Positions 27,822 through 43,052 are shown, counted from the stretch's first letter. The stretch: DNA of 44,336 nt from Candidatus Yanofskybacteria bacterium RIFCSPLOWO2_01_FULL_39_28 (GCA_001794635.1 MGKE01000015.1:1-44336); one strand, 5' to 3'. Notes: generated by a model not told the origin, from the letters alone. Numbers and translations: made by a program.

Positions 27822-28667
27822 TTACCTAAATCCGAACTTTTCTTGAAGACTTTTGAAGAAATAATTCTTTTCTAGTTCAGCAAATTTAACCAGATGGGGA
27901 GAACTCTCAATTACAACTTCGTCTTTTTCTTCTAGAGGAAATAGTGACTCGCCATCAGCCATAAATAAAACGTCTATTTTAGTATTATTTTTTGAAAGCG
28001 AGATAACACCCCTTTTCCTGAAAGAAACAACCTTGAGATTAACAATATTAGTATATTTAACCACAATACTCGGACTAGGTATGCTGTGATCCAAAACCTC
28101 TGTTATTATAAAACATTTAATATCTGGCATAACTATCGGCCCGTGAGCCGAAAGATTGAAAGCAGTTGAACCGGTGGCCGTAGAAACTAAAATCCCAGTT
28201 CCTTGAATGTGTTTAACCGGATGATCGGCTATTCGCGCTTCAAGCTCAACCATACCCAGCGGGCTTTTAACCACTACCTCATTCAAGGCCTCGGCTTTAA
28301 AAATAACTTTATTTTTTCTTTTAACTTGAGCGGTCATCATCATTCTTTCAATGATTCCGTATTTACCTTGGAAAAATTTATCAAGAGATTTTAAAAATTC
28401 TTTTTCTTGCCTAACTGATGCCAAAAAACCGACATGGCCGAGATTTAGTCCCAAAATTATCGAGCCAGATTCATGGTGTTTGCGAGCCGCCTCAAGAATA
28501 GCTCCATCCCCGCCCAAAACAATTACAACATCTGGTTTTTTGCTGTAACTTTTGAGCGCTGGATATTTTTTCTTAAGAAAAGAATTAATCTGTTTAGACC
28601 AAATTACAGCTCGTTTGTTTTGAGAATGATAAAAAATGTGAAATGTTTTTAGGGGTTGACTTGCCAT
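27822..28667 (-). CDS. nadK: NAD kinase
   Basis: VVIVLGGDGAILEAARKH; GILVSTATGSTAFNLSAHGPI. Confidence 0.95.
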   Translation of the reverse strand: MASQPLKTFHIFYHSQNKRAVIWSKQINSFLKKKYPALKSYSKKPDVVIVLGGDGAILEAARKHHESGSIILGLNLGHVGFLASVRQEKEFLKSLDKFFQGKYGIIERMMMTAQVKRKNKVIFKAEALNEVVVKSPLGMVELEARIADHPVKHIQGTGILVSTATGSTAFNLSAHGPIVMPDIKCFIITEVLDHSIPSPSIVVKYTNIVNLKVVSFRKRGVISLSKNNTKIDVLFMADGESLFPLEEKDEVVIESSPHLVKFAELEKNYFFKSLQEKFGFR

Positions 28668-28683
28668 ATGTGGTTTGATATAC

Positions 28684-28704
28684 TTAGTGTAACATAAACA
28701 CTTA
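28684..28704. promoter_or_regulatory. 21-bp palindrome TTAGTGTAACATAAACACTTA, candidate NrtR box
   Basis: Between divergent nadK and nrtR-like gene, inside a TTGATA-N17-ACACTT promoter. Confidence 0.65.
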
Positions 28705-28715
28705 ATAAAAACAAT

Positions 28716-29378
28716 ATGCTAAGGTCTTACCAGTCTGTTACAACCGACATAGTAATATTTACCATAGAACAAGAAGAACTTAAAGTCCTCTTAATCAAGC
28801 GGGCCAAAGAACCATTCAAAAATAAATGGGCTTTACCCGGTGGTTTTATTTTGGAAAACGAAGAACCGGAAAAAGCCGCTTTGAGAGTTTTAAAGAACAA
28901 GGCCGGTGTCAGCAATATCTACATGGAGCAACTCTACACATTTCCCGGTTCCGGAAGAGATCCAAGGGGCAACGTTATCACTATCACCTACTTTGCCTTA
29001 GCACCTACAGAAAAAATAAAAATTCAAAAATCAAAAGAAACTCAAACACCAACATTTTACTCTCTTAAAAAGCTCCCTCAATTGGCTTTTGACCATAAAA
29101 AAATTATTACTTACGCCCTAAAACGTCTTCGTTCAAAGCTTGAATATACAAATGTTGTTTATTCTTTGCTTCCTCAATTTTTTACTTTCAACCAGCTCCA
29201 AGAAGCTTATGAAACAATATTAGACCGCGAATTGGACAAGAGAAATTTTAGAAAGAAATTTATCCTACTCAATCTTATTCGATCAACCAAAAAGGTCCAT
29301 AAAGGCATCCGCCAACGCCCGGCACAACTTTATCAATTTATTAGCTGCCGCCCGACAGAGTTAAAAAAGTTTTTTTAA
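28716..29378 (+). CDS. nrtR: NrtR-like Nudix-related regulator
   Basis: Nudix-like N-terminus LLIKRAKEPFKNKWALPGGFILENEEPEKAALRVLKNKAGV with degenerate box, C-terminal winged-helix-like FTFNQLQEAYETILDRELDKRNFRKK. Confidence 0.85.
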   Translation: MLRSYQSVTTDIVIFTIEQEELKVLLIKRAKEPFKNKWALPGGFILENEEPEKAALRVLKNKAGVSNIYMEQLYTFPGSGRDPRGNVITITYFALAPTEKIKIQKSKETQTPTFYSLKKLPQLAFDHKKIITYALKRLRSKLEYTNVVYSLLPQFFTFNQLQEAYETILDRELDKRNFRKKFILLNLIRSTKKVHKGIRQRPAQLYQFISCRPTELKKFF

Positions 29379-29384
29379 TATAAC

Positions 29385-29428
29385 AACTGTCTTATAACTA
29401 TGCATATGCACAGCTATAAGACAGTTTG
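29385..29428. promoter_or_regulatory. Long inverted repeat, terminator or operator
   Basis: AACTGTCTTATAACTATGCATATGCACAGCTATAAGACAGTT. Confidence 0.6.
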
Positions 29429-29442
29429 GATGAAAAGAAAGT

Positions 29443-29964
29443 ATGACTAAAAATTTAAAAATAAAAATGAGCCCGTTAAAATTAGGAGATGTTAATTATA
29501 TTATGACCTGGGTAAACGACCATGAGATTGTTAAGAATTTACAGCATTTTGATAAAAAGTTCACCAGAAAAGATGAAGAAAAATATGTTAAAAAAATTTT
29601 AAACAGCAAAAACGATTTCGTATTCTCATTTTTTACTAAAAACGAAGAATATATCGGTCAAGGAGGAATTCACCAGATAGCTTGGGAAAACAAGCTTGGC
29701 AGACTATCAATCATCATAAAGCGGGAACATTGGAATAAGGGTTATGCCCAAGAGATACTACCCGCTCTCGTGAATTACGCTTTCAAAGAACTAAAACTTC
29801 ATAAAATCTGGCTAATGCATTGGAAGGAAAACAAAAAAGCAGGTCATTTGTATAAAAAACTCGGTTTTATAAAAGAAGGGGTCCTCAAGGACGAGTATTT
29901 CTGGCAAGGCAAATATCACGATATAATCAGAATGGCTGTGATTAGAACTACTCGCTTGAAATAA
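29443..29964 (+). CDS. GNAT acetyltransferase (RimJ/RimL type)
   Basis: EYIGQGGIHQIAWENKLGRLSIIIKREHWNKGYAQEILPALVNYAFKELKLHKIWL. Confidence 0.9.
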   Translation: MTKNLKIKMSPLKLGDVNYIMTWVNDHEIVKNLQHFDKKFTRKDEEKYVKKILNSKNDFVFSFFTKNEEYIGQGGIHQIAWENKLGRLSIIIKREHWNKGYAQEILPALVNYAFKELKLHKIWLMHWKENKKAGHLYKKLGFIKEGVLKDEYFWQGKYHDIIRMAVIRTTRLK

Positions 29965-30047
29965 GTTCTAATAAAAATAGCCATTTTAATAATTTGGTGT
30001 TATAAATTACGGCAGTTTTGTTAACAATCTATAACACACGGAGACTC

Positions 30048-31919
30048 ATGAAAACATTACAAGGTCTTAAAATTTCACTCTGCCAAATGAGGGTTGTTCC
30101 GGGAAGGCCGGACCTTAACGCCGAATATATAATCAGCGAAATTCAATTCGCTTCAAAACGAGGAGTTGATATTATTGTTTTTCCAGAACTAGCCACTTCT
30201 GGTTATGTTATCGCCGACAGATTTGAAGATGCCAGCTTTATTAACGATGTCCAATTTTTTAACCAAAAAATTGTTGAATCAGTGCCGGAAAAAATTACAG
30301 CAATTTTTGGAACAGTCATCGCCGAGTTTGATAAAAAGGGCGAAGATGGCCGTCACCGGATGCATAATGCAGCCATTATCGCCCAAGGTGGTAAGCAGCT
30401 TGGTTATGTGGTTAAGACTCTTCAGCCTCATTATCGTTATTTTGATGACGATAAGCACCTTTTTTCAGCAAGAAAAATTGCTGAAGAACAAGCTGAACTT
30501 CATCGTCAAAATAAAGACACAAGAGGAATTGAAAATTGCTCAATTCATGATTTGGCTAAAGTATACCAATTACAAACCTCTGTCGGCATTATTCCGATAG
30601 GTATTGGCGTTTGCGAAGATCTTTGGAAAGACGATTATGCTTTTAACCCGTCTAAAATTTTGGCTGAAAAGGGAGCAAAACTTCTCATTGCTCTATCTGC
30701 CTCCCCTTGGGGTTGGCAGAAAAATAGGAAACGCCACCAAGTTATCAAAAATCTTATCCAAGAAATTAAGGTTCCCATCGTTTATGTAAACAATACCGGC
30801 TGTCAGAATAATGGCGATAATGTTGTTAATTTTGACGGCGCCTCAACCGTTTATGACAATAACGGAAATATCGTCCACGAAGTTGATTCATATTTTTCTG
30901 GCGTTCAAGATGTAAATTTTGATGGCAACCTAAAACCTGTTCAATCTAAAAACCAGAACGACACAAAAGAACTTTACTTGGGCATCCGGACAGCAGTAAA
31001 AGAGATGCTGGACATGTTACCCGAGAAAAACAGAAGAGTTGTAATCGGCTTAAGCGGAGGAGTTGATTCGGCAACAATTGCTGCTTTGATGGTTGACATT
31101 TTGGGGCCGGAAAGAGTTCATCTGATAAATATGCCTTATGAATATAGTGATCCAAGTATTGTGGCTCTAGCTCAAAAAGTGGCTGACAATTTAGAAGTGC
31201 CTCTTGAAATTAAACCTATTAAAGGAATAGTTGATGCCGTATCAGCAGAAACGGGTGTAAAAAGAGGTGAATTCGCCCACCAGAACATCCAAGCCCGCGC
31301 CCGCATGGAAATACTTGCATCAGTAGCTCAGAAATTGGGCGGGGTATTTACCTGCAATGCCAACAAGGTTGAGGTTGCTTTTGGTTATGGCACTCTTGAC
31401 GGTGATATGCGTGGCTGGCTGATTCCTTTTGGCGACTTAGTTAAAAGAGAAGTCCGCCAACTGGCTCAATATTTAAATATTGAGGTATTTAAACGGGAAG
31501 TTATTCCCCAAGAATGTATTGACCAAATTCCATCAGCCGAACTTGAACAAAACCAAAAAGACCCGTTTGATTACGGCTATCCAACCAAACGCGGCTATCA
31601 CGATGAATGGGTCAGAGCTGTTACGGAATTCCGCTGGAATCCGGAAAAGTTTTTGGAAATGTATCTGGATGGAAAATTAGAAAAAGAATTAATGCTTGAA
31701 CCGGGCACATTAAACCGCCTCTTCCCTACTCCTGAAAAATTTATTGCCGATTTAGAAAAATGCTGGAGAATGTTCAATAATTCGTTCTTCAAAAGAGTCC
31801 AAGCCCCACCGATAGTTATTGTTTCCCGCCGAGCCTTCGGCCGAGATCTGGAAGAATCAATGTTATCAGTCCACTTTACCAATTGTTATCTGGAACTAAA
31901 GAAAAGAGCTCTCAATTGA
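30048..31919 (+). CDS. nadE: Glutamine-dependent NAD+ synthetase
   Basis: N-terminal nitrilase-type domain (DIIVFPELATSGY); VVIGLSGGVDSATIAALMVD; SD GGAG before ATG 30048. Confidence 0.95.
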   Translation: MKTLQGLKISLCQMRVVPGRPDLNAEYIISEIQFASKRGVDIIVFPELATSGYVIADRFEDASFINDVQFFNQKIVESVPEKITAIFGTVIAEFDKKGEDGRHRMHNAAIIAQGGKQLGYVVKTLQPHYRYFDDDKHLFSARKIAEEQAELHRQNKDTRGIENCSIHDLAKVYQLQTSVGIIPIGIGVCEDLWKDDYAFNPSKILAEKGAKLLIALSASPWGWQKNRKRHQVIKNLIQEIKVPIVYVNNTGCQNNGDNVVNFDGASTVYDNNGNIVHEVDSYFSGVQDVNFDGNLKPVQSKNQNDTKELYLGIRTAVKEMLDMLPEKNRRVVIGLSGGVDSATIAALMVDILGPERVHLINMPYEYSDPSIVALAQKVADNLEVPLEIKPIKGIVDAVSAETGVKRGEFAHQNIQARARMEILASVAQKLGGVFTCNANKVEVAFGYGTLDGDMRGWLIPFGDLVKREVRQLAQYLNIEVFKREVIPQECIDQIPSAELEQNQKDPFDYGYPTKRGYHDEWVRAVTEFRWNPEKFLEMYLDGKLEKELMLEPGTLNRLFPTPEKFIADLEKCWRMFNNSFFKRVQAPPIVIVSRRAFGRDLEESMLSVHFTNCYLELKKRALN

Positions 31920-31926
31920 GAGCTCT

Positions 31927-32457
31927 TTAAATTTTCTTAAACTTCTCCCACTTTTCAGAGAAACATTGTTTGATTTCTTCAATCACAAGAGGGTTAACCA
32001 ATCCATCTATGGGCCTTTTCTCAATAAGAGCATCTCTGACTTTAGTGGCTGAAATTTCGGGAGTCGTTCCATCAAAACGATTCATGATTTCAACCTTTCG
32101 ATTGAAACGATAGAAAAAATCTATATCTTGCCGGGATCCGCCGTAAAAGACAACATCTTTCGGATTCATTCCAGACACGGAAAGTATATCGTCTAAAGCA
32201 GTCATCCACACGGCATCATCATGATAATCTGGAAGGCCGACGAGTTTAAGACCAGGAAAAATTTTTGATAAAAATTGCCGTCTTTCAGTATAAGAGAAGA
32301 AGTGTAAAACACTGACCAGGTGGTTTGAGCTGCCAATAATAACCAGGCAGTTATCAATGCCGAAATTATCAATCATGGACCGGATTACTTTTTCATGCCC
32401 GATATGCACCGGACAAAACCTGCCGACAATAACTGCTTTGGTTTTGCTCTTGTTCAT
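31927..32457 (-). CDS. Nicotinamide-nucleotide adenylyltransferase, NadM-like
   Basis: VIVGRFCPVHIGHEKVIRSM and ISATKVRDAL. Confidence 0.85.
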   Translation of the reverse strand: MNKSKTKAVIVGRFCPVHIGHEKVIRSMIDNFGIDNCLVIIGSSNHLVSVLHFFSYTERRQFLSKIFPGLKLVGLPDYHDDAVWMTALDDILSVSGMNPKDVVFYGGSRQDIDFFYRFNRKVEIMNRFDGTTPEISATKVRDALIEKRPIDGLVNPLVIEEIKQCFSEKWEKFKKI

Positions 32458-32520
32458 TTAATTATTTTGACAAAACTTGGCTTTTTGTCAAAAATAAATA
32501 AAAGGAGCATGCACTGCTCC

Positions 32521-32868
32521 TTAGGATAGCTTTCTGATAAATTCTAAATCATTGGGAATATCTACGGCTGGACCCAGAATTAAGCCGGAAATTATAAAGA
32601 ACTTGGCAACATCAGCAAATCCGTCGTATCTTTGCAGATTTCTTATTAATGAAATAATCTCAGGGTCAACATGGCTCATATGCATTGACCTAATTATCCT
32701 AACACCGTCTATTTTGGCTAATTGCTGCTCCAATAAATACAAAGACCCAAATGAAAACTCACATGAAAATTCACCATCTTTTTCAATATAAACAACGGCT
32801 ACAGTTCTTACCTCATCAAGGTCCACTACACTATTCATTTTCAATCTCCGCTTGTTTTCTAGTGTCAA
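32521..32868 (-). CDS. Hypothetical protein
   Basis: 115-aa ORF with terminator GGAGCAGTGCATGCTCC downstream. Confidence 0.6.
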   Translation of the reverse strand: MTLENKRRLKMNSVVDLDEVRTVAVVYIEKDGEFSCEFSFGSLYLLEQQLAKIDGVRIIRSMHMSHVDPEIISLIRNLQRYDGFADVAKFFIISGLILGPAVDIPNDLEFIRKLS

Positions 32869-32985
32869 TAATATATATCAAACTTATCCTAAAGTCAAAA
32901 AACGTTTTTACCAAATAAATTTATCAGATTGTCAAAAAGTAATAAGTGTGGTATTGTAATGCAAATTGTTTTTTGAAAACAGCCA

Positions 32986-34377
32986 ATGATACCACTAGTA
33001 GAGCTAGCCTTAAGCGACCGGAGGAAAAGACTAAAATCAATTTTAGACACTTCCCCGGCAGATCTAACTGAATTACACACCGAGTTATCTAACTTCTTAT
33101 TAGACGAGGAAAATATAAGAATTATACTTTATCTTCCTTTCAACCTTCTCCCTTCTCCGGGAACAACTTTTGCGGATATTTATTTGAAGAGTTGGAAAAA
33201 ATTACTTACTGCAAATGAAAACGACCTCCGGACAAACTTTGTGGATGGGGATGTGCTCGAGCCAGAACTAGGAGAAAATCCCCGAGTCAGAAAAGCAGCC
33301 CACTTAATTCCAAAGTTGGTTGATAAGGGTCTCTTGTCACCATCGGATGTTGTTTCTTTATTTACAGATTCAAAAGGTGATAAAATCCTCCATGATAGTA
33401 TTGCAGACACCCTTCCAATTCTTGCTTGTTTGGGATTGGTAAGATCTGATTTAGTAAAAGCTCAAACCAAACCAGCCAAACCGACCTGTCCACCTAATTT
33501 AAAAGCCAGGATTGCCTGGGAAGATCAAGAAAGAAAAAATAAAAAGATTATAGAATTTACCGATAGATCATTTGCATATGCAAAATATTTTTTGGAACTT
33601 TTTACCCTAATTTGGGGAAAAAGTAATTTAGAAACCAGGGAGGATTTGGCCACCATATTATTTCACTGGTTATCAATGGGGGTTATTAAAGAAAGTGATC
33701 TTAAAGTATTTAACCTTAAACGTCCCGATCTTGAATCAACCCAAAACGATGACATTACAAAAGAAGTTGATGATTTAAATGAAAAAATTAAGTCAAACGA
33801 AGAGTTATTTAGAATTCTATATCCCGTAGGGATAGCATTCGGTTCTCGCGTTAAGGGTTATGCTAAATTAACGGCCGATCTGGATATTGCGGTTTTTGTC
33901 AGGCCAGGCGTTCCCTGGACTGAAAAAAGTAAAATTTATAAAACATTGGGCAAGGTAACTGAGTTTTGGCTAGAAGAAAAAGATAATGATCTTGTTGTTC
34001 GCTCTATGCCTCTTGAAGAAAATAACGTAGCCGAAAAAGACTGGATCCACATTCCTCTTCAAGGAATATGGCTGGGTGAACCTAGCCAGATTAGATATCT
34101 GCAGCAAAAATTCCTTCCCCGATATCTAAACAGCACGAACAGAACAGAACGAACAACCTGGTTAAGGCAATTAGAGCTTGAGGCGCTACAATATCGCTTG
34201 ATGCATAAGGGCTATGCACGTTTTTACCCAGTTAACACGGCCGACACAGCAACGGCTAAATATTCATATCTGATTGATTCGGACAGTGTTTTTTGGGACT
34301 CGGGATACAGATTACTGGCAACTAAATTATTTATCTCCCGGGTATTTTTACCAAAAATGAAAGATTTAGAAAAATAA
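32986..34377 (+). CDS. Pol-beta-superfamily nucleotidyltransferase-domain protein
   Basis: GIAFGSRVKGYAKLTADLDIAVFV (GS..[...]DxD pattern). Confidence 0.75.
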   Translation: MIPLVELALSDRRKRLKSILDTSPADLTELHTELSNFLLDEENIRIILYLPFNLLPSPGTTFADIYLKSWKKLLTANENDLRTNFVDGDVLEPELGENPRVRKAAHLIPKLVDKGLLSPSDVVSLFTDSKGDKILHDSIADTLPILACLGLVRSDLVKAQTKPAKPTCPPNLKARIAWEDQERKNKKIIEFTDRSFAYAKYFLELFTLIWGKSNLETREDLATILFHWLSMGVIKESDLKVFNLKRPDLESTQNDDITKEVDDLNEKIKSNEELFRILYPVGIAFGSRVKGYAKLTADLDIAVFVRPGVPWTEKSKIYKTLGKVTEFWLEEKDNDLVVRSMPLEENNVAEKDWIHIPLQGIWLGEPSQIRYLQQKFLPRYLNSTNRTERTTWLRQLELEALQYRLMHKGYARFYPVNTADTATAKYSYLIDSDSVFWDSGYRLLATKLFISRVFLPKMKDLEK

Positions 34378-34381
34378 ACAA

Positions 34382-34422
34382 AAAGGGCAGTACCGTTAAA
34401 CGGTCTGCCCTGTTTTTATTGT
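34382..34422. terminator. Bidirectional terminator
   Basis: AGGGCAGTACCGTTAAACGGTCTGCCCTGTTTTTA. Confidence 0.75.
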
Positions 34423-35840
34423 AAAATTCCCAGATCAATTTGATATTTCAGTTCAATGCAATCTTTATTCATCGGTCCGGTTGACACAGCATAAACGGGT
34501 ATATTTAATTCATCTCTAATAAACTGGAAGCCGATAAAGAGAGGATCTGTTATTTTTAATACTTCTATGTTTGGAAAACATTGGTAAAGAAACCGGCCAA
34601 GTTCTTCCTGACGTTCAATCTGTAATCTACCACTACTATCAGAAACTTTAATACCGATAATCTCATCCGTACTATTTTGCAAAAAGAAATCAGAAATAAA
34701 AAATGGGTTAATATGTGGATCACTATAAGACCTGCAGACTTCCCATCTTCCGAGAGATTGGATTCTGTCTACACAGGTAACCACCAGGCCATCAAGTTGG
34801 CCTTTGCAAACTTCCACAGCATATTTTGCCAATACCACATCAAAGCAACCTACTCGGAAATTACCCTGCCACTGATGATTTTGATTACTTGGGTCTGGTA
34901 AACATCTCGTTAATTCAGTTGACTCAGTAACGAACGGGCCTCCGCCATGGCGAGTGTGATATGCCCGCAATACGCCCAGACTAGTAACCTCGCCGTCGTA
35001 GTCACATTCTTTAAGCAACGAAAGCGCTGTTTCGGGAATAGTTCTGACCTTAGTCGTATACGGATGAAAGCCGTAAAAGCGATCCAGAAGCACACCTTGA
35101 GAACCTTCAAAAATAACTGTTCCAGATCGGCCAAGAATTTTTTCAGCAACATAACTTGTATCAACAATACCTACTAAAGAAGCTATCTCTATGAACCAAC
35201 TAAGAGCCCACTCTATAGTTTTCTCACTCTGAAGATTAGCTGCTTCAAAATGTGCTCTGTCCCGAAGAGTTTCTGGTAATTTATCAATGCGACTGATAAT
35301 TTCTTCCAGTTCCAATATTTTTCTTTTTTGAATTGATTCGAGTTTATCTTTCAGGTTTGGCTGATAAAGATCTTTGGCCCTGATCGCTTCTTCGGGAAAA
35401 GCTTCGGCATCCAAAACAGTCTCGCCCACACCAACTCCGACAGAGCCATATCTTTTATCACTTCTGGAAAGCTCCTTCAAACGATTAGCAATGGCATGAA
35501 ACGGTGTAATTACCAAAGCATCTTCATGAATTGTTATCTTGTCAAAGATGTCTCTGATACCATGTTCTTTTTGCAAAGACCGTCCTTCAGAGATTATGGC
35601 ATAAGGATCAATGACCATATTCTTAGACAAATGTGTTCTTGCTCCGGCAAGAGTTCCACTCCCAAACTGAGCATGGACATGTTCATGTCCGTCTGAAGTT
35701 ACAACTCTATGCATCGCCTGGGGTCCACCCGTTCTTATTACCGTATGAGCTTTGTGTTTTGAAGAAAGCCAGAGAGTTACCTTGCCTTTTCCTTCGTCAC
35801 CATAGCCAAGTCCCGTTATAACAAAAGCTTTTTTGCTCAC
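34416..35840 (-). CDS. Divergent adenylosuccinate synthetase (PurA) paralogue
   Basis: LGYGDEGKGKVTLWLSSKHKAHTVIRTGGPQAMHRVVTSDG; IFEGSQGVLLDRFYGFHPYTT; VYAVSTGPMNKD. Confidence 0.85.
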   Translation of the reverse strand: MSKKAFVITGLGYGDEGKGKVTLWLSSKHKAHTVIRTGGPQAMHRVVTSDGHEHVHAQFGSGTLAGARTHLSKNMVIDPYAIISEGRSLQKEHGIRDIFDKITIHEDALVITPFHAIANRLKELSRSDKRYGSVGVGVGETVLDAEAFPEEAIRAKDLYQPNLKDKLESIQKRKILELEEIISRIDKLPETLRDRAHFEAANLQSEKTIEWALSWFIEIASLVGIVDTSYVAEKILGRSGTVIFEGSQGVLLDRFYGFHPYTTKVRTIPETALSLLKECDYDGEVTSLGVLRAYHTRHGGGPFVTESTELTRCLPDPSNQNHQWQGNFRVGCFDVVLAKYAVEVCKGQLDGLVVTCVDRIQSLGRWEVCRSYSDPHINPFFISDFFLQNSTDEIIGIKVSDSSGRLQIERQEELGRFLYQCFPNIEVLKITDPLFIGFQFIRDELNIPVYAVSTGPMNKDCIELKYQIDLGILQ

Positions 35841-35897
35841 CCTACCTCCTTTGTTGAAAAAGAGCGGTCAAATGACCGCTCAGTCTGTCTCTGGAAG

Positions 35898-37040
35898 TTA
35901 GATCTTCCAATCCTTGCCCTTCTTGCCACTTTTCTTGCCTTCGGCTAAAGGCCGAGTTTTTTCTTTCTTTGAAACACTTGTTCCGATCGGCCAAATATCG
36001 TCACGGCCCTTGAATCGAGCGCCAGCCAAAGGAATCTTGTTGAAATTCGGATAGCTTGCCTGAAGACCGATTGGAATACCCGAAACCGCTTCAACGATCC
36101 GGGAAGACTTGCCACGATCTGACTTTGATCCGCCTAAGAACTCAACGGCATTCTGTAGATCCAGAACGCCTTCGGTAAGACCAATAATGACCGCTTGGAC
36201 TTCGGCAAGATCTTCGGTCCGAGGCAGTTTTACAACATGATCTTTTCCAAAAAGCTTGGCCCACCAATCAGTAGCATACGGATTATCATAAACCTGGAGA
36301 TAAAAAGGGTACCAATTTTTGACTAACTCACCAGCAATTTCTGAGGTTGAAGGAAGTACTTTTGTAGGATTTGAACCAAATGCCCTCTCTAACACATCGC
36401 TTCCAAAAACCTGTTCAAGAACCCTGGCATCTAATTTATCACGGCCCCTCTCATCACCAACCACAAAATAATATCCTTTTAAACCATAATCATTAATACT
36501 TAATTTGGTAAGATATACGGCCATAAAAAGTCCGAGCTGATAATCTTCAGTTGCATCTCCTCCACTTCTGTTTGGAACTAAAAGGCCCATCTGGCGTTCA
36601 ACCTCATTATCAGGTTCAAACATAGTTCGCAAATAAGGATACTGATCAACTCTATCCTGGACAATACCGGTTGCGATTTGGGTATGGTATCTTTTCAGAA
36701 CCGCGTTTTCGCCTTGAATCAAAAGATTCTGGACCTTAGGTAAAGCTTTGAACGCAAGATCAACGTTACCGCCCATTGATCCGGTTGTATCCAAATCTGA
36801 CTGAACAGGAATAGCCACTCCAAACGGCGCCACAAACTCATCGCCTTCAGGAACCAAAAGAGTATTTGAACCCCTTTTGTTTTGATCGGTGTATTTGCTC
36901 GGATCAACTAAAGGATCAAGAGCTTCACCCTGGCGAGCTCTTTCTTCACCTTTAAAAGTAGCCCTGCCAGCTCCTTTTTCTTCTGCCTCGCTTACCCTTG
37001 ACCTGTAAGTTGCATCAGACCACGAACCCTTGCTTCTCAT
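35898..37040 (-). CDS. vWA-like protein 1
   Basis: MIDAS-like DLDTTGSMGGNVDLAFKALP; C-terminal KKGKDWKI. Confidence 0.7.
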   Translation of the reverse strand: MRSKGSWSDATYRSRVSEAEEKGAGRATFKGEERARQGEALDPLVDPSKYTDQNKRGSNTLLVPEGDEFVAPFGVAIPVQSDLDTTGSMGGNVDLAFKALPKVQNLLIQGENAVLKRYHTQIATGIVQDRVDQYPYLRTMFEPDNEVERQMGLLVPNRSGGDATEDYQLGLFMAVYLTKLSINDYGLKGYYFVVGDERGRDKLDARVLEQVFGSDVLERAFGSNPTKVLPSTSEIAGELVKNWYPFYLQVYDNPYATDWWAKLFGKDHVVKLPRTEDLAEVQAVIIGLTEGVLDLQNAVEFLGGSKSDRGKSSRIVEAVSGIPIGLQASYPNFNKIPLAGARFKGRDDIWPIGTSVSKKEKTRPLAEGKKSGKKGKDWKI

Positions 37041-37090
37041 CTTCTCTCTCCTTTGTCCTCCGAAGCTTTGTGCGTAGGAGGATTTGTTGT

Positions 37091-37141
37091 CAAAAAACGT
37101 GATTGGAGGTGGTCAACCTTGATGCCTCCTCAATCGGCATC
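37091..37141 (-). promoter_or_regulatory. Candidate leader attenuator with mutually exclusive hairpins
   Basis: GATGCC/GGCATC (37121-37141) versus GATTGAGGAGG/CCTCCAATC (37101-37135) followed by T6. Confidence 0.5.
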
Positions 37142-37202
37142 AATATATTAGAACGGTTGCCTATATTTGTCAACCGTAGTTTTGGCCGACCAACTCCATT
37201 AC

Positions 37203-37223
37203 TTAGTGTATTAAAAACACTAA
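37203..37223. promoter_or_regulatory. 21-bp perfect-arm palindrome TTAGTGTATTAAAAACACTAA within a minus-strand promoter
   Basis: Same arms and N7 spacing as 28684-28704; promoter TTGACA-N17-TACACT spans 37205-37233. Confidence 0.65.
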
Positions 37224-37280
37224 ATAGTGTCAACAGAACATAAAATAAATCCGGATAAAAATTATCCGGATCAAACTTGC

Positions 37281-38189
37281 TCAAAGACTGTTATTCCACT
37301 CTTTCCAGAATTTAATAGCGGCTGGAAAATGTTCTCTTGAAATACCGTCTGAGAACATAAAATCTTTATACCCAAGTGATAACATATATTCAAGGTCGGA
37401 AACATCCGCCATTGACACGCTTCCACTCTCAAGACCGATCAAAAGACGAGAAGCACAAATAGCATTGGGGTCCTTGTTAACAATCATATTCAAAGATTTG
37501 ATCATATTTAAAATTCCTATCTGAATCATTAAGTCATCACGAGCAGCCATAAGACGATATCCTTTTAATAAGGAGGCATCGTTTTGAAATACAAAATCCA
37601 AACCTGCTTGAGACTCAATTTTGAGACAAATAGTGCTTTTAGAACAATGTTTTCCCAAAGCATCCTCCAACTCCAGAATATTATTCCAGCCCTCAACAAA
37701 AGAAAGCATGAAATTAAAAACTCCATTCTGGACTGCAACATCAATATATTCATGGTCCAGCGGAAGAAGTCCGCCTTCAACCTCAAGTTTTTCAGAAAGT
37801 ATATTGACTGATTGGCCTCGACCTACTGGTGCCTTGGGTAATGGGTCAACGTATAACTTATTGCCGTCAACCACTTTTTTTAATTCACAACAGTCGTCAC
37901 CCCGGAAACAAACTTTAGCCGGCAACTTAACCTTAACCCGGTGGTTAAGCACTATCGGACCATAGGGTAGATTCGCCCACTCAATAACTCTAAGTTGCCT
38001 TCCTTTAAGATCAATCCAAACTGGTTTATTTAATGGCCGCGCTAGATTCTGTATCCTCTGTATAACCTCTCTCGGTGAATAAGCCGAACTCATTCCGGTA
38101 TTGTAACGAACTGCCCCCACACTGGGATGAGTAATAATTTCCTTAAGTAAATCTTCCTGATGGACTGGCGGAAGACTGACGATAAGCAT
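37281..38189 (-). CDS. Pyruvate-kinase-like TIM-barrel protein, short
   Basis: KPVWIDLKGRQLRV; YIDVAVQNGVFNFMLSFVEGWNNILELEDAL; ICLKIESQAGLDFV; LMAARDDLMIQIG. Confidence 0.75.
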   Translation of the reverse strand: MLIVSLPPVHQEDLLKEIITHPSVGAVRYNTGMSSAYSPREVIQRIQNLARPLNKPVWIDLKGRQLRVIEWANLPYGPIVLNHRVKVKLPAKVCFRGDDCCELKKVVDGNKLYVDPLPKAPVGRGQSVNILSEKLEVEGGLLPLDHEYIDVAVQNGVFNFMLSFVEGWNNILELEDALGKHCSKSTICLKIESQAGLDFVFQNDASLLKGYRLMAARDDLMIQIGILNMIKSLNMIVNKDPNAICASRLLIGLESGSVSMADVSDLEYMLSLGYKDFMFSDGISREHFPAAIKFWKEWNNSL

Positions 38190-38291
38190 AAATCACTCCC
38201 AAGTTTTCAGTGAACTTTTGACCAATAAATTACCATGGTTATTTAAATTGGTCAATTAAAATCCGCTAGAATTACTCGCGGTTGTTTGATG

Positions 38292-39329
38292 CTAGATCTT
38301 CCAGCTCCTATCGCCTTTCTTGCTCGCTTTTTCTTTCTTACTTGAAACAGAAGTTGATTTATTCTTTTTTGTGACAGTAACGGTTGAGCGAACCGATTTA
38401 ACTGGTTTGAAATCTTTCAGTGGCTGTAAAGCTTCGTCTACTTGTTTGATACGTTTATCAGATTGGGGTTCATATTTTATCCCTTCGCCAAGATCAAGCG
38501 GTCTAGTACGCATATCTTCTAGATACTGTTTGAGTGTTCGCGTACCGGATACAATAGCATATACTCCAAGCGTAATATCACCAATAGCTAAATCATCAGG
38601 AAGATGAATAACTCGTTCTTGGCCAAGAACTCCTTCCCATTGATCCACAATTTTTCTTTCCGTCCATCCCTCGCTTCCGATACCAGCGTATCTACGATGA
38701 ATGAGAAAAACATTTTCCTTGAATTTCTCCACAAGATCATCAAAAACTTTTTTAGCAGTAGTATCGCCATGTTCGCCACCAAAATGTTCACGCAAATCGT
38801 CAGCATAAAGATTCTCAACAAAAGCTTCGTCAGCCGTAATAAGATAGATAGGATTCTCTACCTTAGGCATGTCACAAATATAAGCATAGTAATATGCTGT
38901 CATAGCATAAGATTCGCTACCCTGACCTCCACCATTACCTTCGAAATGTATTTTCTTAAACCATTTATCCAAATTTCTCAGAGCAGAAAAATCCGCCATC
39001 TGTAAAGGCGAGCGATCTGAACGAATATCGCCAGTAGCAGCAATACTCATCTGCGGGTCAGGTAAATATTTACGAGCTACGATTTGACCGACAATTCCTG
39101 GCCACTTATCATAGATAATCTTCGGCAGATTACCAAGTGAACCAGTAACATCGGGATTATATACCAAGGGATTCTTAGCCATACAAATAACTCTACGATT
39201 TTTCGGTAACAATGCCGGATCCATACTGCTTTGCCTTAATTCTCTTTCAGTAGTAGTCGTATAACCCGCAGAAGTTCTGAATGATTTATCCGTTACATCG
39301 CGATCATAATAGCTTCCGCCGCCACCCAT
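38292..39329 (-). CDS. vWA-like protein 2
   Basis: NPDVTGSLGNLPKIIYDKWP; C-terminal KKGDRSWKI. Confidence 0.7.
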   Translation of the reverse strand: MGGGGSYYDRDVTDKSFRTSAGYTTTTERELRQSSMDPALLPKNRRVICMAKNPLVYNPDVTGSLGNLPKIIYDKWPGIVGQIVARKYLPDPQMSIAATGDIRSDRSPLQMADFSALRNLDKWFKKIHFEGNGGGQGSESYAMTAYYYAYICDMPKVENPIYLITADEAFVENLYADDLREHFGGEHGDTTAKKVFDDLVEKFKENVFLIHRRYAGIGSEGWTERKIVDQWEGVLGQERVIHLPDDLAIGDITLGVYAIVSGTRTLKQYLEDMRTRPLDLGEGIKYEPQSDKRIKQVDEALQPLKDFKPVKSVRSTVTVTKKNKSTSVSSKKEKASKKGDRSWKI

Positions 39330-39396
39330 GGCTTGACCTCCTTCTCAAGGAACACGTTTGTAAAATAATACAATAAACTAATTTTGTCAAAGCAAA

Positions 39397-39422
39397 TTAA
39401 AACCGGCACAGTGTGCCGGTTA
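39397..39422 (-). terminator. Rho-independent terminator
   Basis: AACCGGCACACTGTGCCGGTTTT on minus strand. Confidence 0.85.
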
Positions 39423-41399
39423 ATTCATGATTTTACGAACTTCAATCGGTAAATCAACTTCTAGATCTAGTTTGACAATGTTACGGGCTTCAATCTGGTC
39501 AATAAGCTCAAGACAGCCTGGAACTATATTTCTCTTCCTAATCTGCTGAATAATCTCTTTTGAATTAGGTGGCAGGAGCCGGCGTGAAGATGATTCGGAA
39601 ATTGCCAACAAAGTCATCAGGTCAATTTCTGCCTGGCTGGCCGAAGGAATAAAGTCCGCAATCGCTTCTTGTAAAGAAGCATCGTCTACTTCTTTTTTAC
39701 TGCTCAAAGCTGAAAACTTAAAGGCGTCTAGAACTATTTTGCGAATATCGGCGCCGGAAATTCCATCGGTCAATTTAGCATAAGGCCGGAAGTCCTTTAT
39801 GGAAGTCTTGATCTTATATTTCTTAAACATAACGACAAAAATTGGATCACGCTCTTCAACCGAAGGCATCAAAAGAGCAATCCTGTCGTCAGATCGGCCC
39901 GATCGTTTCATAGCCGCATCCATTCTGTCGGGACGGTTTGTGCAGTTAATAACAATAACCTTGCCCTGAATTTTTGGATCGGATAAAAACTTCATCCAGG
40001 ACTGCATGATTCTTTCGGAAACACCCGAGTCGCCTTTTGGAGCGTCCCGGTTTGCTTCACCAAGGTCAGCTTCATCGTTCATTACAACGACTGGAGCCAA
40101 GGCCCATAAGCCCTGAATCTGTCTTTCAGTTCTTTCTTCCGATTGTCCAACCCACATGGAACGGGCATTTTTCATTTTGACAAAGTTATAACCCGCTCCC
40201 TTGGCAAGAGCTTCAACAAGAGCCGTTTTTCCTGTTCCAGGCGGCCCCATAAGTGTTATCCCCTGGGGAACTGATCTGATTTCACCTTTCTTAATTGCAC
40301 TCAACACTTCCCGAAAATACATTTTTGGTTTTTCCAAACCGCCAATGTCTTCAAGTCCCCAGTCTGGATCTATAATTTCCATAACATCACCATATTCGCT
40401 GTTAAGAATCTCTGCCTTTTTTGCTTTAACAAAAAATAGATCAACCATCTGTTCTTTTTGACGGCTAAGACGAAATATCTCCAAAATCTGCCTCAAGCTC
40501 ATACCCTGGGTTGCGTTAACAAATACATCTATATCAAAATCATCTGGCACTGGAAAAATTGAAGGAAAGTCCTTTAATTGCTCGGTTAAGTTAGAGATTT
40601 CTTCTTCAATTTCTGCTTTTTCACGTTTAGTACGTTTGAGTTTTTTGACCAATATCTTTATCTGATTTTCAATTTCCTGAAATTGAGAACTTCCTTTAGT
40701 AAGTCTTTCAAGATATCTCTTACACTCTTCCGGAGTTGGTTTGGGAATAAAAACCGTAGAAATCCTGCTTGAAGATTGACGCAACTCTCCAGAAATCTTG
40801 GAAGCAAGGTCTGTAAAAAGCAGAACTATGTTTCGCCTTTTTTTCATTCCACTGTCTTGAGCCCAATTTCTAAATCTCTCTATGTGAGTCCGCTCATTTG
40901 GAGTAAGTGATGGCCCGTTTGATTCAGAGGCAACAAAGTGGGCTGATTCAACAATAACAGCAACGTTCTCCATTTTCTTTAAAACTTTCTCAATTAAGGG
41001 CAGGCACAATTCTGGTTCTCGTGGAGTCGGCCGCTTAGCGGCTAGACCGGCTTTAGCAGCTGCCACCGGATCGCTTCCATCAGCAGAACCATCTTCTTTT
41101 TCCAACTCTGCTATTTTTCTGAAAGTATTTTCCATTTCCGGCTTAAGAAATCTCGGACCGGAAGCAATGTTGTAGAATATAACCATCTCTCTTTCATCAA
41201 AAACTCGAGACAAGAATTCATTCAACGGCACGTAAGGCCATTGGATTTCTGAGTCGGCGTAGGGATTAGGAACAAGACAGGTTATATCACCATGCAAAAT
41301 AAACACAGATGAAATCCCAGCCTTAAAACGGCTAGCTATGCCTTCTGTAAACCACTCCGGTATTACCGGTCCGACAACTGACTCTTTGGCTACCATCAT
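39420..41399 (-). CDS. AAA+ ATPase with long N-terminal region (Ycf46-like architecture)
   Basis: Walker A GPPGTGKTALVEALAK, Walker B VVVMNDEAD, sensor/Arg region NCTNRPDRMDAAMKRSGRSDDRI. Confidence 0.85.
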   Translation of the reverse strand: MMVAKESVVGPVIPEWFTEGIASRFKAGISSVFILHGDITCLVPNPYADSEIQWPYVPLNEFLSRVFDEREMVIFYNIASGPRFLKPEMENTFRKIAELEKEDGSADGSDPVAAAKAGLAAKRPTPREPELCLPLIEKVLKKMENVAVIVESAHFVASESNGPSLTPNERTHIERFRNWAQDSGMKKRRNIVLLFTDLASKISGELRQSSSRISTVFIPKPTPEECKRYLERLTKGSSQFQEIENQIKILVKKLKRTKREKAEIEEEISNLTEQLKDFPSIFPVPDDFDIDVFVNATQGMSLRQILEIFRLSRQKEQMVDLFFVKAKKAEILNSEYGDVMEIIDPDWGLEDIGGLEKPKMYFREVLSAIKKGEIRSVPQGITLMGPPGTGKTALVEALAKGAGYNFVKMKNARSMWVGQSEERTERQIQGLWALAPVVVMNDEADLGEANRDAPKGDSGVSERIMQSWMKFLSDPKIQGKVIVINCTNRPDRMDAAMKRSGRSDDRIALLMPSVEERDPIFVVMFKKYKIKTSIKDFRPYAKLTDGISGADIRKIVLDAFKFSALSSKKEVDDASLQEAIADFIPSASQAEIDLMTLLAISESSSRRLLPPNSKEIIQQIRKRNIVPGCLELIDQIEARNIVKLDLEVDLPIEVRKIMN

Positions 41400-41408
41400 T
41401 ATCTCCTA

Positions 41409-42095
41409 TCAGTGCTTGTGATTGTGGCTATGACCATGATGATGGTGATGATCGTGGGTATGGCGGTTTTCGCCAGGAAACGGATCGCCTTCAGATGTGG
41501 TTGATTCTCTGATAACAATTTTTACGCCCAGCTTTTGAGCAAGAGATAGAAACTTAGCTGTTTCTACTTCTAAAGCTTTGCGGGACTTAAAATGTTCAAA
41601 AACAACAGTCGCGTCCCCGTCTTTCTTTGTAATTTTTATATAATCGCAAGGATGAGACTTGCCTTCTTCTTCGGCTTCAAGAATAAACTCGTCACCGTTT
41701 TGAGTAATCTTGACTTCGTAATCAAGCAGTTCGGCCACAATACCAAGAATTTCAAACTGCCAGCGTTCAGAAACACGAGAAAAAGTTTCAGACAAATTTT
41801 TCTTTTCCTTGGCATCCACATAACTGCCTTTTGCTTCAAGCTCCCCTTTATCATTGACTGATAATTCAATTCCCTTAATTGACAACTTAGATAAAGCCCT
41901 CTTGAGAGCTTCTTTGAGAAGCGGCTCCGTGTTAAGTTCTGTTAACCACTCTGAAAATTCCTCATCTTCACTGCCAAGCTTAGCTAAAAGATCAGCATCA
42001 ATCTTGGGAGCATCGGCTTTGGCTTTAAATGTTTGGGGCTGAGGCGCAGGAATTTGAACCCTGGCAATGCTTTTATACCCGATATTGCATGGCAT
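41409..42095 (-). CDS. AAA+ partner protein with natural His-rich tail
   Basis: MPCNIGYKSIARVQIP start with AAGGGGGAAGTC SD; tail HTHDHHHHHGHSHNHKH; middle region loosely resembles DUF1257/Ycf35. Confidence 0.65.
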   Translation of the reverse strand: MPCNIGYKSIARVQIPAPQPQTFKAKADAPKIDADLLAKLGSEDEEFSEWLTELNTEPLLKEALKRALSKLSIKGIELSVNDKGELEAKGSYVDAKEKKNLSETFSRVSERWQFEILGIVAELLDYEVKITQNGDEFILEAEEEGKSHPCDYIKITKKDGDATVVFEHFKSRKALEVETAKFLSLAQKLGVKIVIRESTTSEGDPFPGENRHTHDHHHHHGHSHNHKH

Positions 42096-42223
42096 GACTT
42101 CCCCCTTCTTTGGTTTGTTAAAAATACTGGCTATTTGATACCATAAATATAATATATTGTCTACTTGACACAATAATATATAATCTATACACTAATTGTA
42201 GCATTATTGTAAAAAAAGGGGGG

Positions 42224-42460
42224 GTGATGATACACACTGAATTGATTACTATTACCTTAACCGAAGGAAATACGAATGATGAAAACTTGACGCTAATCTT
42301 TAACGAAAAGATTGAAGAAGGAGTTCATAGATTTGGGGAATATAAAGGATCCCTGCTATTGTCTGATTACACTAACCTAGCTGGCAGCAGATTTGTTAAA
42401 TTTTTTGCCACCTTTGCCATTAAAGACATGCCGGGATTTAGTCCCAGCAAGAAAGGATAG
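42224..42460 (+). CDS. Hypothetical protein preceding pncA
   Basis: 78-aa ORF, AAGGGGGGG SD, four nt before pncA start. Confidence 0.6.
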   Translation: MMIHTELITITLTEGNTNDENLTLIFNEKIEEGVHRFGEYKGSLLLSDYTNLAGSRFVKFFATFAIKDMPGFSPSKKG

Positions 42461-42464
42461 TCCA

Positions 42465-43052
42465 TTGAGAAAAGCGTTGCTGATTGTTGATGTCCAGAAT
42501 GACTTTTGTCCGGGCGGGGCATTAGCCGTTCCAAATGGTGATCAGGTTATTGAACCGTTAAATAAGATGATGGGACATGCGAATAATAAGAATGGGCGTA
42601 TTCTTGCGTCAAGAGATTGGCATTCAAGAAACAATAAAAAACATTTTAGCAAGTGGCCTCCGCATTGTATCCAAAATACACCCGGTGCTGAATTCCATCC
42701 TCTCCTGCAATTGCCGACTAGAGCATTTACGATTTCAAAGGGGTACACGAATGAAGATGATGGATATTCATTGTTTGAAGGAGTATATATTAGAAAAGAC
42801 GATTGGCCGTTATCCGCAGGATCATTACTCTATGGATTTAACGAAATCTGCGTTGGCGGGCTAGCAACTGATTATTGCGTAAAAGCTACCTGTTTAGACG
42901 CTGTAAAACTTGGTTATAAGGTTTATCTTCTAACTGATGCTTGCCGAGCGGTTAACCTTAAACCAACGGATGAAGCCGATGCTCTTGAAGAAATGCGTCA
43001 AGCCGGAATAATTTTCACTACTACCGACCAAGTCATTAGCGAGAGCCGATAG
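42465..43052 (+). CDS. pncA: Nicotinamidase/isochorismatase family
   Basis: LLIVDVQNDFCPGGALAVPNGDQVI; VGGLATDYCVKATCLDA; TTG start after AAAGGA. Confidence 0.92.
   Translation: MRKALLIVDVQNDFCPGGALAVPNGDQVIEPLNKMMGHANNKNGRILASRDWHSRNNKKHFSKWPPHCIQNTPGAEFHPLLQLPTRAFTISKGYTNEDDGYSLFEGVYIRKDDWPLSAGSLLYGFNEICVGGLATDYCVKATCLDAVKLGYKVYLLTDACRAVNLKPTDEADALEEMRQAGIIFTTTDQVISESR

Follow-up and report, generated by a model that had tools for sequence, protein, structure and literature searches.

Candidate NrtR operators at NAD genes and at a vWA1–PurA-like gene unit in a Candidatus Yanofskybacteria genome

The 44,336 bp stretch of DNA analysed here, referred to as the window, is contig C15 of the genome of Candidatus Yanofskybacteria bacterium RIFCSPLOWO2_01_FULL_39_28, which is 815 kb long and judged 86% complete. 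The features of interest are listed in Table 1. Six of the genes form a minus-strand cluster in the order His-tailed protein, AAA ATPase, vWA2, PK-like enzyme, vWA1 and PurA-like enzyme, and beyond this module are a nicotinamidase-like gene and a GAPDH gene.

Table 1. Genes, promoters and predicted NrtR boxes of the window, with the profile matches or motifs by which they are named.
Feature	Coordinates	Strand	Match or remark
nadK, NAD kinase, divergent from nrtR	27822-28667	-	PF20143 2.1e-17; PF01513 3e-12
nrtR promoter	28656-28684	+	TTGACT-N17-TATACT; box starts at last base of the -10
NrtR box (predicted), nadK/nrtR divergent region	28684-28704	.	TTAGTGTAACATAAACACTTA; 21.2 bits
nrtR, Nudix-like sensor with NrtR winged-helix domain	28716-29378	+	PF21906 1.5e-20; PF00293 1.5e-16
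GNAT acetyltransferase, after nrtR	29443-29964	+	PF13302 1.8e-22
nadE, glutamine-type NAD synthetase (CN_hydrolase and NAD_synthase)	30018-31919	+	PF02540 3.5e-43
NMN adenylyltransferase-like, NadM/NadR type	31927-32457	-	NF002243 8.8e-12, below cut-off
Polbeta-type nucleotidyltransferase	32986-34377	+	homologues beside several modules
PurA-like enzyme	34416-35840	-	PF00709 1.4e-54
vWA1, vWA-like, first gene after box	35898-37040	-	MIDAS-like DTTGSM motif
Proximal vWA1 promoter, without box	37145-37173	-	TTGACA-N17-TAATAT; similar ones in module-bearing relatives
NrtR box (predicted), vWA1–PurA-like unit	37203-37223	.	TTAGTGTATTAAAAACACTAA; 25.8 bits, highest in window
Distal vWA1 promoter	37205-37233	-	TTGACA-N17-TACACT; box covers spacer and -10
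Terminator-like hairpin between PK-like gene and box	37248-37272	-	
PK-like TIM barrel enzyme	37281-38189	-	PF00224 6.9e-10; pyruvate-kinase active-site motifs kept
vWA2, vWA-like, best module marker	38292-39329	-	MIDAS-like DVTGS motif
AAA ATPase, classical CDC48/PAN/FtsH type	39420-41399	-	PF00004 1.2e-23
His-tailed conserved protein	41409-42095	-	starts MPCNIGYK; open frame extends to 42173
Isochorismatase-family protein, probable nicotinamidase (PncA)	42393-43052	+	PF00857 4.9e-29

By its sequence, the product of the nrtR gene belongs to the NrtR family. Its PF00293 and PF21906 matches are both above cut-off, there is a palindrome at its own promoter, and its Nudix box (GGFILENEEPEKAALRVLKNKAGV) is degenerate: the catalytic glutamates of the REUxEE motif are missing in an alignment of 10 orthologues, as expected for a sensor and not a hydrolase. 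Matches to PDB sequences extend over nearly the full length of the protein and include BtAraR (5bs6, 1.2e-37) and Shewanella NrtR (3gz5/3gz6, 1.2e-29).

The PurA-like enzyme retains the GDEGKG and FEGAQG motifs and the catalytic histidine; the Asp-binding loop is not kept, its place being taken by an invariant WQGxFR, and the protein scores 148.6 bits against the adenylosuccinate synthetase equivalog, for which the cut-off is 402. It is not the cell's own PurA, as a canonical-scoring copy is also present in six genomes. The residues of the PurA-like and PK-like enzymes are assigned catalytic roles from what is established for PurA and pyruvate kinase. Pfam names neither vWA1 nor vWA2, and we refer to both as vWA-like on account of their MIDAS-like motifs (DTTGS and DVTGS, respectively), which are conserved in alignments of their homologues, and in the case of vWA1 also its predicted fold: an AlphaFold2 model (pLDDT 80) finds integrin I-like domains and the NorD vWA (9qhd, 9qh6) in Foldseek searches (best 8e-6). 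Both have Lys-rich tails closing in WKI, and their homologues mostly have Lys-rich ends, several of them closing in WKL or WKI, which might suit a tail destined for an AAA pore. No structural match with E below 0.001 was obtained for the His-tailed protein; its His-rich C-terminal tail (HDHHHHHGHSHNHKH) is common to several homologues, and the protein family starts with MPC and often has such a tail.

Parcubacteria have the same order of the six genes (loci L077-L080, with L076 ending at a contig edge), and a nucleotidyltransferase gene often adjoins the module. NadE of the window type is encoded in or beside the module in genomes G017, G018, G065 and G398, and in G018 and G065 it has a C-terminal CTP_transf_like domain of the NMN adenylyltransferase type, the fused genes lying inside the module (L071 10597-13017 and L084 14352-16790). 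More broadly, module genes are linked to nadE, NMN adenylyltransferase, pncA, nadK or ADP-ribosylglycohydrolase genes, whether or not a box is present. A phage origin of the module is not supported, there being no vWA2 relative in viral contigs. A literature search, with most subscription papers lying outside it, found no paper connecting a vWA/AAA/PurA module with NAD, and none joining NrtR with the Candidate Phyla Radiation.

The original prediction drew attention to two 21-mers, and both are found in the window, at 28684-28704 and 37203-37223. They share the pattern TTAGTGT-N7-ACACTWA, the second having perfect arms and the first being one arm base short of a perfect palindrome. With no more than one mismatch the pattern is present at only three places in the whole 815 kb genome, the third of which (C8:5306; ATAGTGTAAATATAACACTAA) is directly upstream of nadA (quinolinate synthase), with 44 bases from the first base of the box to the called nadA start. 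If two mismatches are allowed, a reversed-pattern control gives as many matches in the genome as the pattern itself, and only the top three stand out. We also constructed a weight matrix from 28 boxes of NrtR-bearing genomes, most of them at nrtR or NAD genes and none from vWA modules. In the window this matrix ranks the site at 37203 first (25.8 bits), although it is outside the training set; the site at 28684, itself in the training set, scores 21.2 bits, and the third-best place scores 10.0 bits. A Markov background of 2.66 Mb contains no score of at least 18 bits, and 3 Mb of random sequence resembling the window contains none of at least 14 bits; the pair, which was to be set against random genome-wide density, is thus not a matter of chance.

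There are three further observations on sites of this kind. A degenerate half box (ATAGTGT, 37224-37244, 6.8 bits) lies directly against the vWA1 box, their centres being 21 bases apart, and covers the -35. Two sites upstream of the gene that opens the cluster (42154 and 42175) are too weak to be considered boxes, at 8.2 and 5.8 bits. On contig C8 the box and nadA lie together with genes for an ADP-ribosylglycohydrolase, a Nudix protein, NAPRT, an HD-like protein and another Nudix protein (L009 371-6973), a group that forms a second NAD cluster in this genome.

A scan of this and related genomes bore out the expectation that the motif is conserved, and across the Patescibacteria it tracks NrtR and NAD genes. 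Among NrtR-bearing members, the palindrome WTAGTGTA-N5-TACACTAW recurs before nrtR, nadK, nadA, pncA, pnuC and ADP-ribosylglycohydrolase genes. The divergent nadK/nrtR position is repeated in G017, and G001 and G003 have a box before nadK and before nrtR-side genes; other examples precede nadK in G065 and G017, nadA in G001 and G003, pnuC in G003 and G065, pncA in G060, and the ADP-ribosylglycohydrolase gene in G017 and G065. Because it recurs before NAD genes in NrtR carriers, this palindrome is almost certainly the NrtR box of these Patescibacteria, and by box position the targets of the predicted regulon are genes of NAD metabolism. The link between site and regulator comes from comparative genomics only, and in principle another regulator could recognize the same site, the nearby NrtR being incidental. 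However, in nearly all genomes with an NrtR orthologue in the first set of relatives the box precedes nrtR or the operon that holds it, and in NrtR-less genomes the pattern counts are mostly not above control, such that we regard a different regulator as very unlikely.

We note that genes for an ADP-ribosylglycohydrolase, a nucleoside deoxyribosyltransferase-like protein (PF15891) and PncA are in a row at L061 13059-17544 and L063 13172-16057, and that in G017 such a row is under a box. The NadE beside nrtR in G001 (L063 16883-17239) is a 118-residue CN_hydrolase fragment, possibly a broken gene or a frameshift.

The boxes are positioned differently at the two promoters. Both had been predicted to lie between the -35 and -10 elements, and this is so at vWA1, where the box fills the spacer and -10 of the distal promoter (TTGACA 37233-37228, N17, TACACT 37210-37205, minus strand). 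At nrtR, the -10 (TATACT) of the best promoter ends at 28684, which is the first base of the box, and the operator then covers the region just downstream. Most boxes, including those of relatives, overlap a -10 element or lie directly against one, in promoters that fit the TTGACA/TATAAT type well, an arrangement that suits a repressor. Following the PK-like gene on the minus strand are the hairpin, the distal promoter with its box, the proximal promoter without one, and vWA1. Relatives without NrtR have a proximal-type promoter and no box, and G060, which has NrtR, has both (as read by eye). Because the second, box-free promoter lies between the box and vWA1, NrtR control of vWA1 is probably partial. 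In the upstream half of the cluster, from the His-tailed protein to the PK-like enzyme, no box reaches significance (best 8.2 bits), and most likely the vWA1 box gates only the vWA1–PurA-like unit, behind the terminator-like hairpin, leaving the rest of the cluster outside its control.

Module-bearing genomes were collected and then tested for a full-length NrtR; the genomes drawn are samples of larger groups and vary in completeness, and the genes of relatives are mechanical open frames named by BLAST against window proteins. Genomes represented twice (G200 and G065 are one genome, G017 is L083 and G030 is L081) were counted once. A box is present within or directly before the module in six of the 13 genomes with NrtR and in none of the eight without a full-length NrtR (Fisher one-sided p = 0.03, without tree correction), some of the scanned modules being divergent, with a single vWA and no AAA found. 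The former group contributes 94 kb of module sequence, in which about 0.05 boxes of at least 14 bits are expected by chance; in the 72 kb of the latter the maximum is 7.1 bits. The box-bearing modules are those of this genome (G000), G060, G065, G644, G164 and G692, with scores of 14.2-25.8 bits, and nrtR is within a few kb of the module in three of the five further genomes. G060 has its box in the same PK-like/vWA1 gap as the window, G164 has one identical 21-mer before both the module operon and nrtR, and in G692 the box is between nrtR and a vWA/PurA-like operon. The order in G644 is nrtR, box, two genes, vWA1, PK-like, PurA-like, PncA, NadK-like and ADP-ribosylglycohydrolase. No box is present in the modules of seven NrtR-bearing genomes (G017, G066, G064, G438, G747, G261 and G165); the association is recurrent, not universal. 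NrtR is also commoner among module-bearing genomes (13/25) than among module-free relatives (8/55; p = 0.0007, without tree correction), the first count being rough in that four of the 25 (G281, G173, G348 and G379) were classed by vWA2-profile matches only.

These data also bear on whether the vWA1 site could be a chance palindrome of an AT-rich promoter, with TACACT serving as a -10 and no relation to NrtR. AT-rich promoters do yield inverted repeats, the right arm of the box doubles as the distal -10, and the second promoter already serves vWA1. Nonetheless, the site reaches its score with a matrix from which it was excluded, no such score is seen in 2.66 Mb of random sequence, and equivalent boxes are present in the modules of five other genomes that have NrtR and absent from those of the eight that lack it; a chance origin is therefore most improbable. 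The presence of the box in the vWA1–PurA-like promoter, its recurrence with NrtR and its absence without it support membership of this unit in the predicted NrtR regulon. The original prediction had placed the vWA cluster as a whole in that regulon, and this stands for the vWA1–PurA-like unit and not for the half that lacks a box.

As the sites are shared with nrtR and NAD genes and recur at the module, we think it very probable that both palindromes serve as operators for the NrtR encoded in the window and that the vWA/AAA/PK-like/PurA-like module is NAD-linked. By occupying the -10 or the bases just beyond it, NrtR would repress its own promoter and, in all likelihood, also the divergent nadK, nadA on the other contig, and the distal vWA1–PurA-like promoter. 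When an NAD-breakdown signal rises (ADP-ribose in the studied family members), NrtR would be released and the promoters would fire together; the box-free proximal promoter would maintain a basal level of vWA1, to which NrtR would add an NAD-dependent boost. Binding, repression, ligand and module role are all things that we infer.

Several NrtRs that have been studied respond to ADP-ribose, and NrtR regulons of NAD metabolism are known (PMC6800001, PMC4666351); by analogy with the family, ADP-ribose may be the signal here. It is possible, if somewhat less than probable, that NrtR reads these boxes but that its ligand is instead NAD, a compound from which NAD is made, or something produced by the PurA-like/PK-like pathway. 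The family is varied: the Bacteroides AraR branch responds to arabinose and NdnR of Corynebacterium glutamicum to NAD (PMC4666351, PMC6800001), and the closest solved structure by sequence is BtAraR (5bs6), not Shewanella NrtR. The AraR/XylR branch has the same two-domain design (PMC4666351), although AraR binds arabinose and controls sugar use, whereas the genes here are NAD genes; moreover, a regulon of NAD synthesis, salvage and ADP-ribosylglycohydrolase genes matches those of the ADP-ribose-responsive members.

Returning to the NAD-linked module, our best guess at its function is AAA/vWA remodelling of an NAD-linked pathway, and a remodelling or metal-loading AAA/vWA complex attached to an NAD-derived nucleotide pathway would fit. 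A more specific proposal, which we make tentatively and consider doubtful, is of a Patescibacteria NAD pathway in which NadE with NMN adenylyltransferase, a PurA-like ligase and the PK-like enzyme would make or alter an NAD-derived nucleotide, the complex of AAA, two vWAs and the His-tailed protein would load metal into or remodel the protein that uses it, and NrtR would provide the boost according to NAD status. The analysis offers a testable candidate NrtR box for a rarely cultured bacterial group, and ties conserved unassigned genes (two vWA, AAA, PurA-like, PK-like and His-tailed) to NAD by two independent lines, the shared operator and the nadE neighbourhood, which narrow the search for a substrate to NAD-derived molecules.

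The NrtR regulons of Shewanella, Synechocystis, Mycobacterium and Streptococcus resemble that proposed here in having a Nudix-like sensor with a winged helix, a box at the regulator's own promoter and targets in NAD synthesis and salvage. The M. smegmatis NrtR box (GTTTTCGA-N7-TCGAAAAC; PMC6800001) likewise has two arms with an N7 centre. Departures from the known regulons are the arms (TAGTGT/ACACTA), the patescibacterial host and the uncharacterised vWA/PurA-like target.

A second comparison is with the neighbourhoods of a Nudix repressor, an ADP-ribosylglycohydrolase (ARG) and a vWA protein predicted by Iyer and colleagues (PMC9503650, section 3.8), and it raises the question of whether the module is a conflict or repair system that undoes hostile ADP-ribosylation and is turned on through NrtR when ADP-ribose appears. 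A Nudix repressor and a vWA gene are common to both, G644 has an ADP-ribosylglycohydrolase in the same neighbourhood as vWA1, PK-like and PurA-like genes, G017 has one that is preceded by a box and lies some 3 kb from its PurA-like gene, and in this genome one is near nadA on contig C8. However, the window has no ADP-ribosylglycohydrolase, G644 alone having one in the module neighbourhood, and there is no phosphatase among the window genes at 27822-43052, whereas just over half of the described ARG-centred systems have a coupled phosphatase (PMC9503650). The ADP-ribosylglycohydrolase is absent from eight of 20 genomes searched, seven of the eight being module-bearing, and PADLOC returns only weak AAA-type matches and one marginal LmuA match. 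The steady partners are instead the PurA-like, PK-like, AAA and NadE proteins, the core here also including the His-tailed protein, and we consider a conflict or repair role unlikely.

The module has two further points of reference. The PurA-like enzyme shares the PurA fold and the GTP-site and catalytic motifs of adenylosuccinate synthetase and PurZ, and differs from them in falling far below the equivalog cut-offs, in its replaced Asp loop and in its occurrence beside a canonical-scoring PurA. The AAA+/vWA metal insertases (NorQ-NorD, CbbQ-CbbO and RavA-ViaA) differ from the module in that its AAA protein is not of the MoxR type, with best matches to PF00004 and to CDC48/PAN/FtsH models, and in that its partners are nucleotide-type enzymes; they resemble it in pairing an AAA ATPase with vWA partners that have conserved MIDAS motifs and a vWA-like fold, the vWA1 model itself matching the vWA of NorD.
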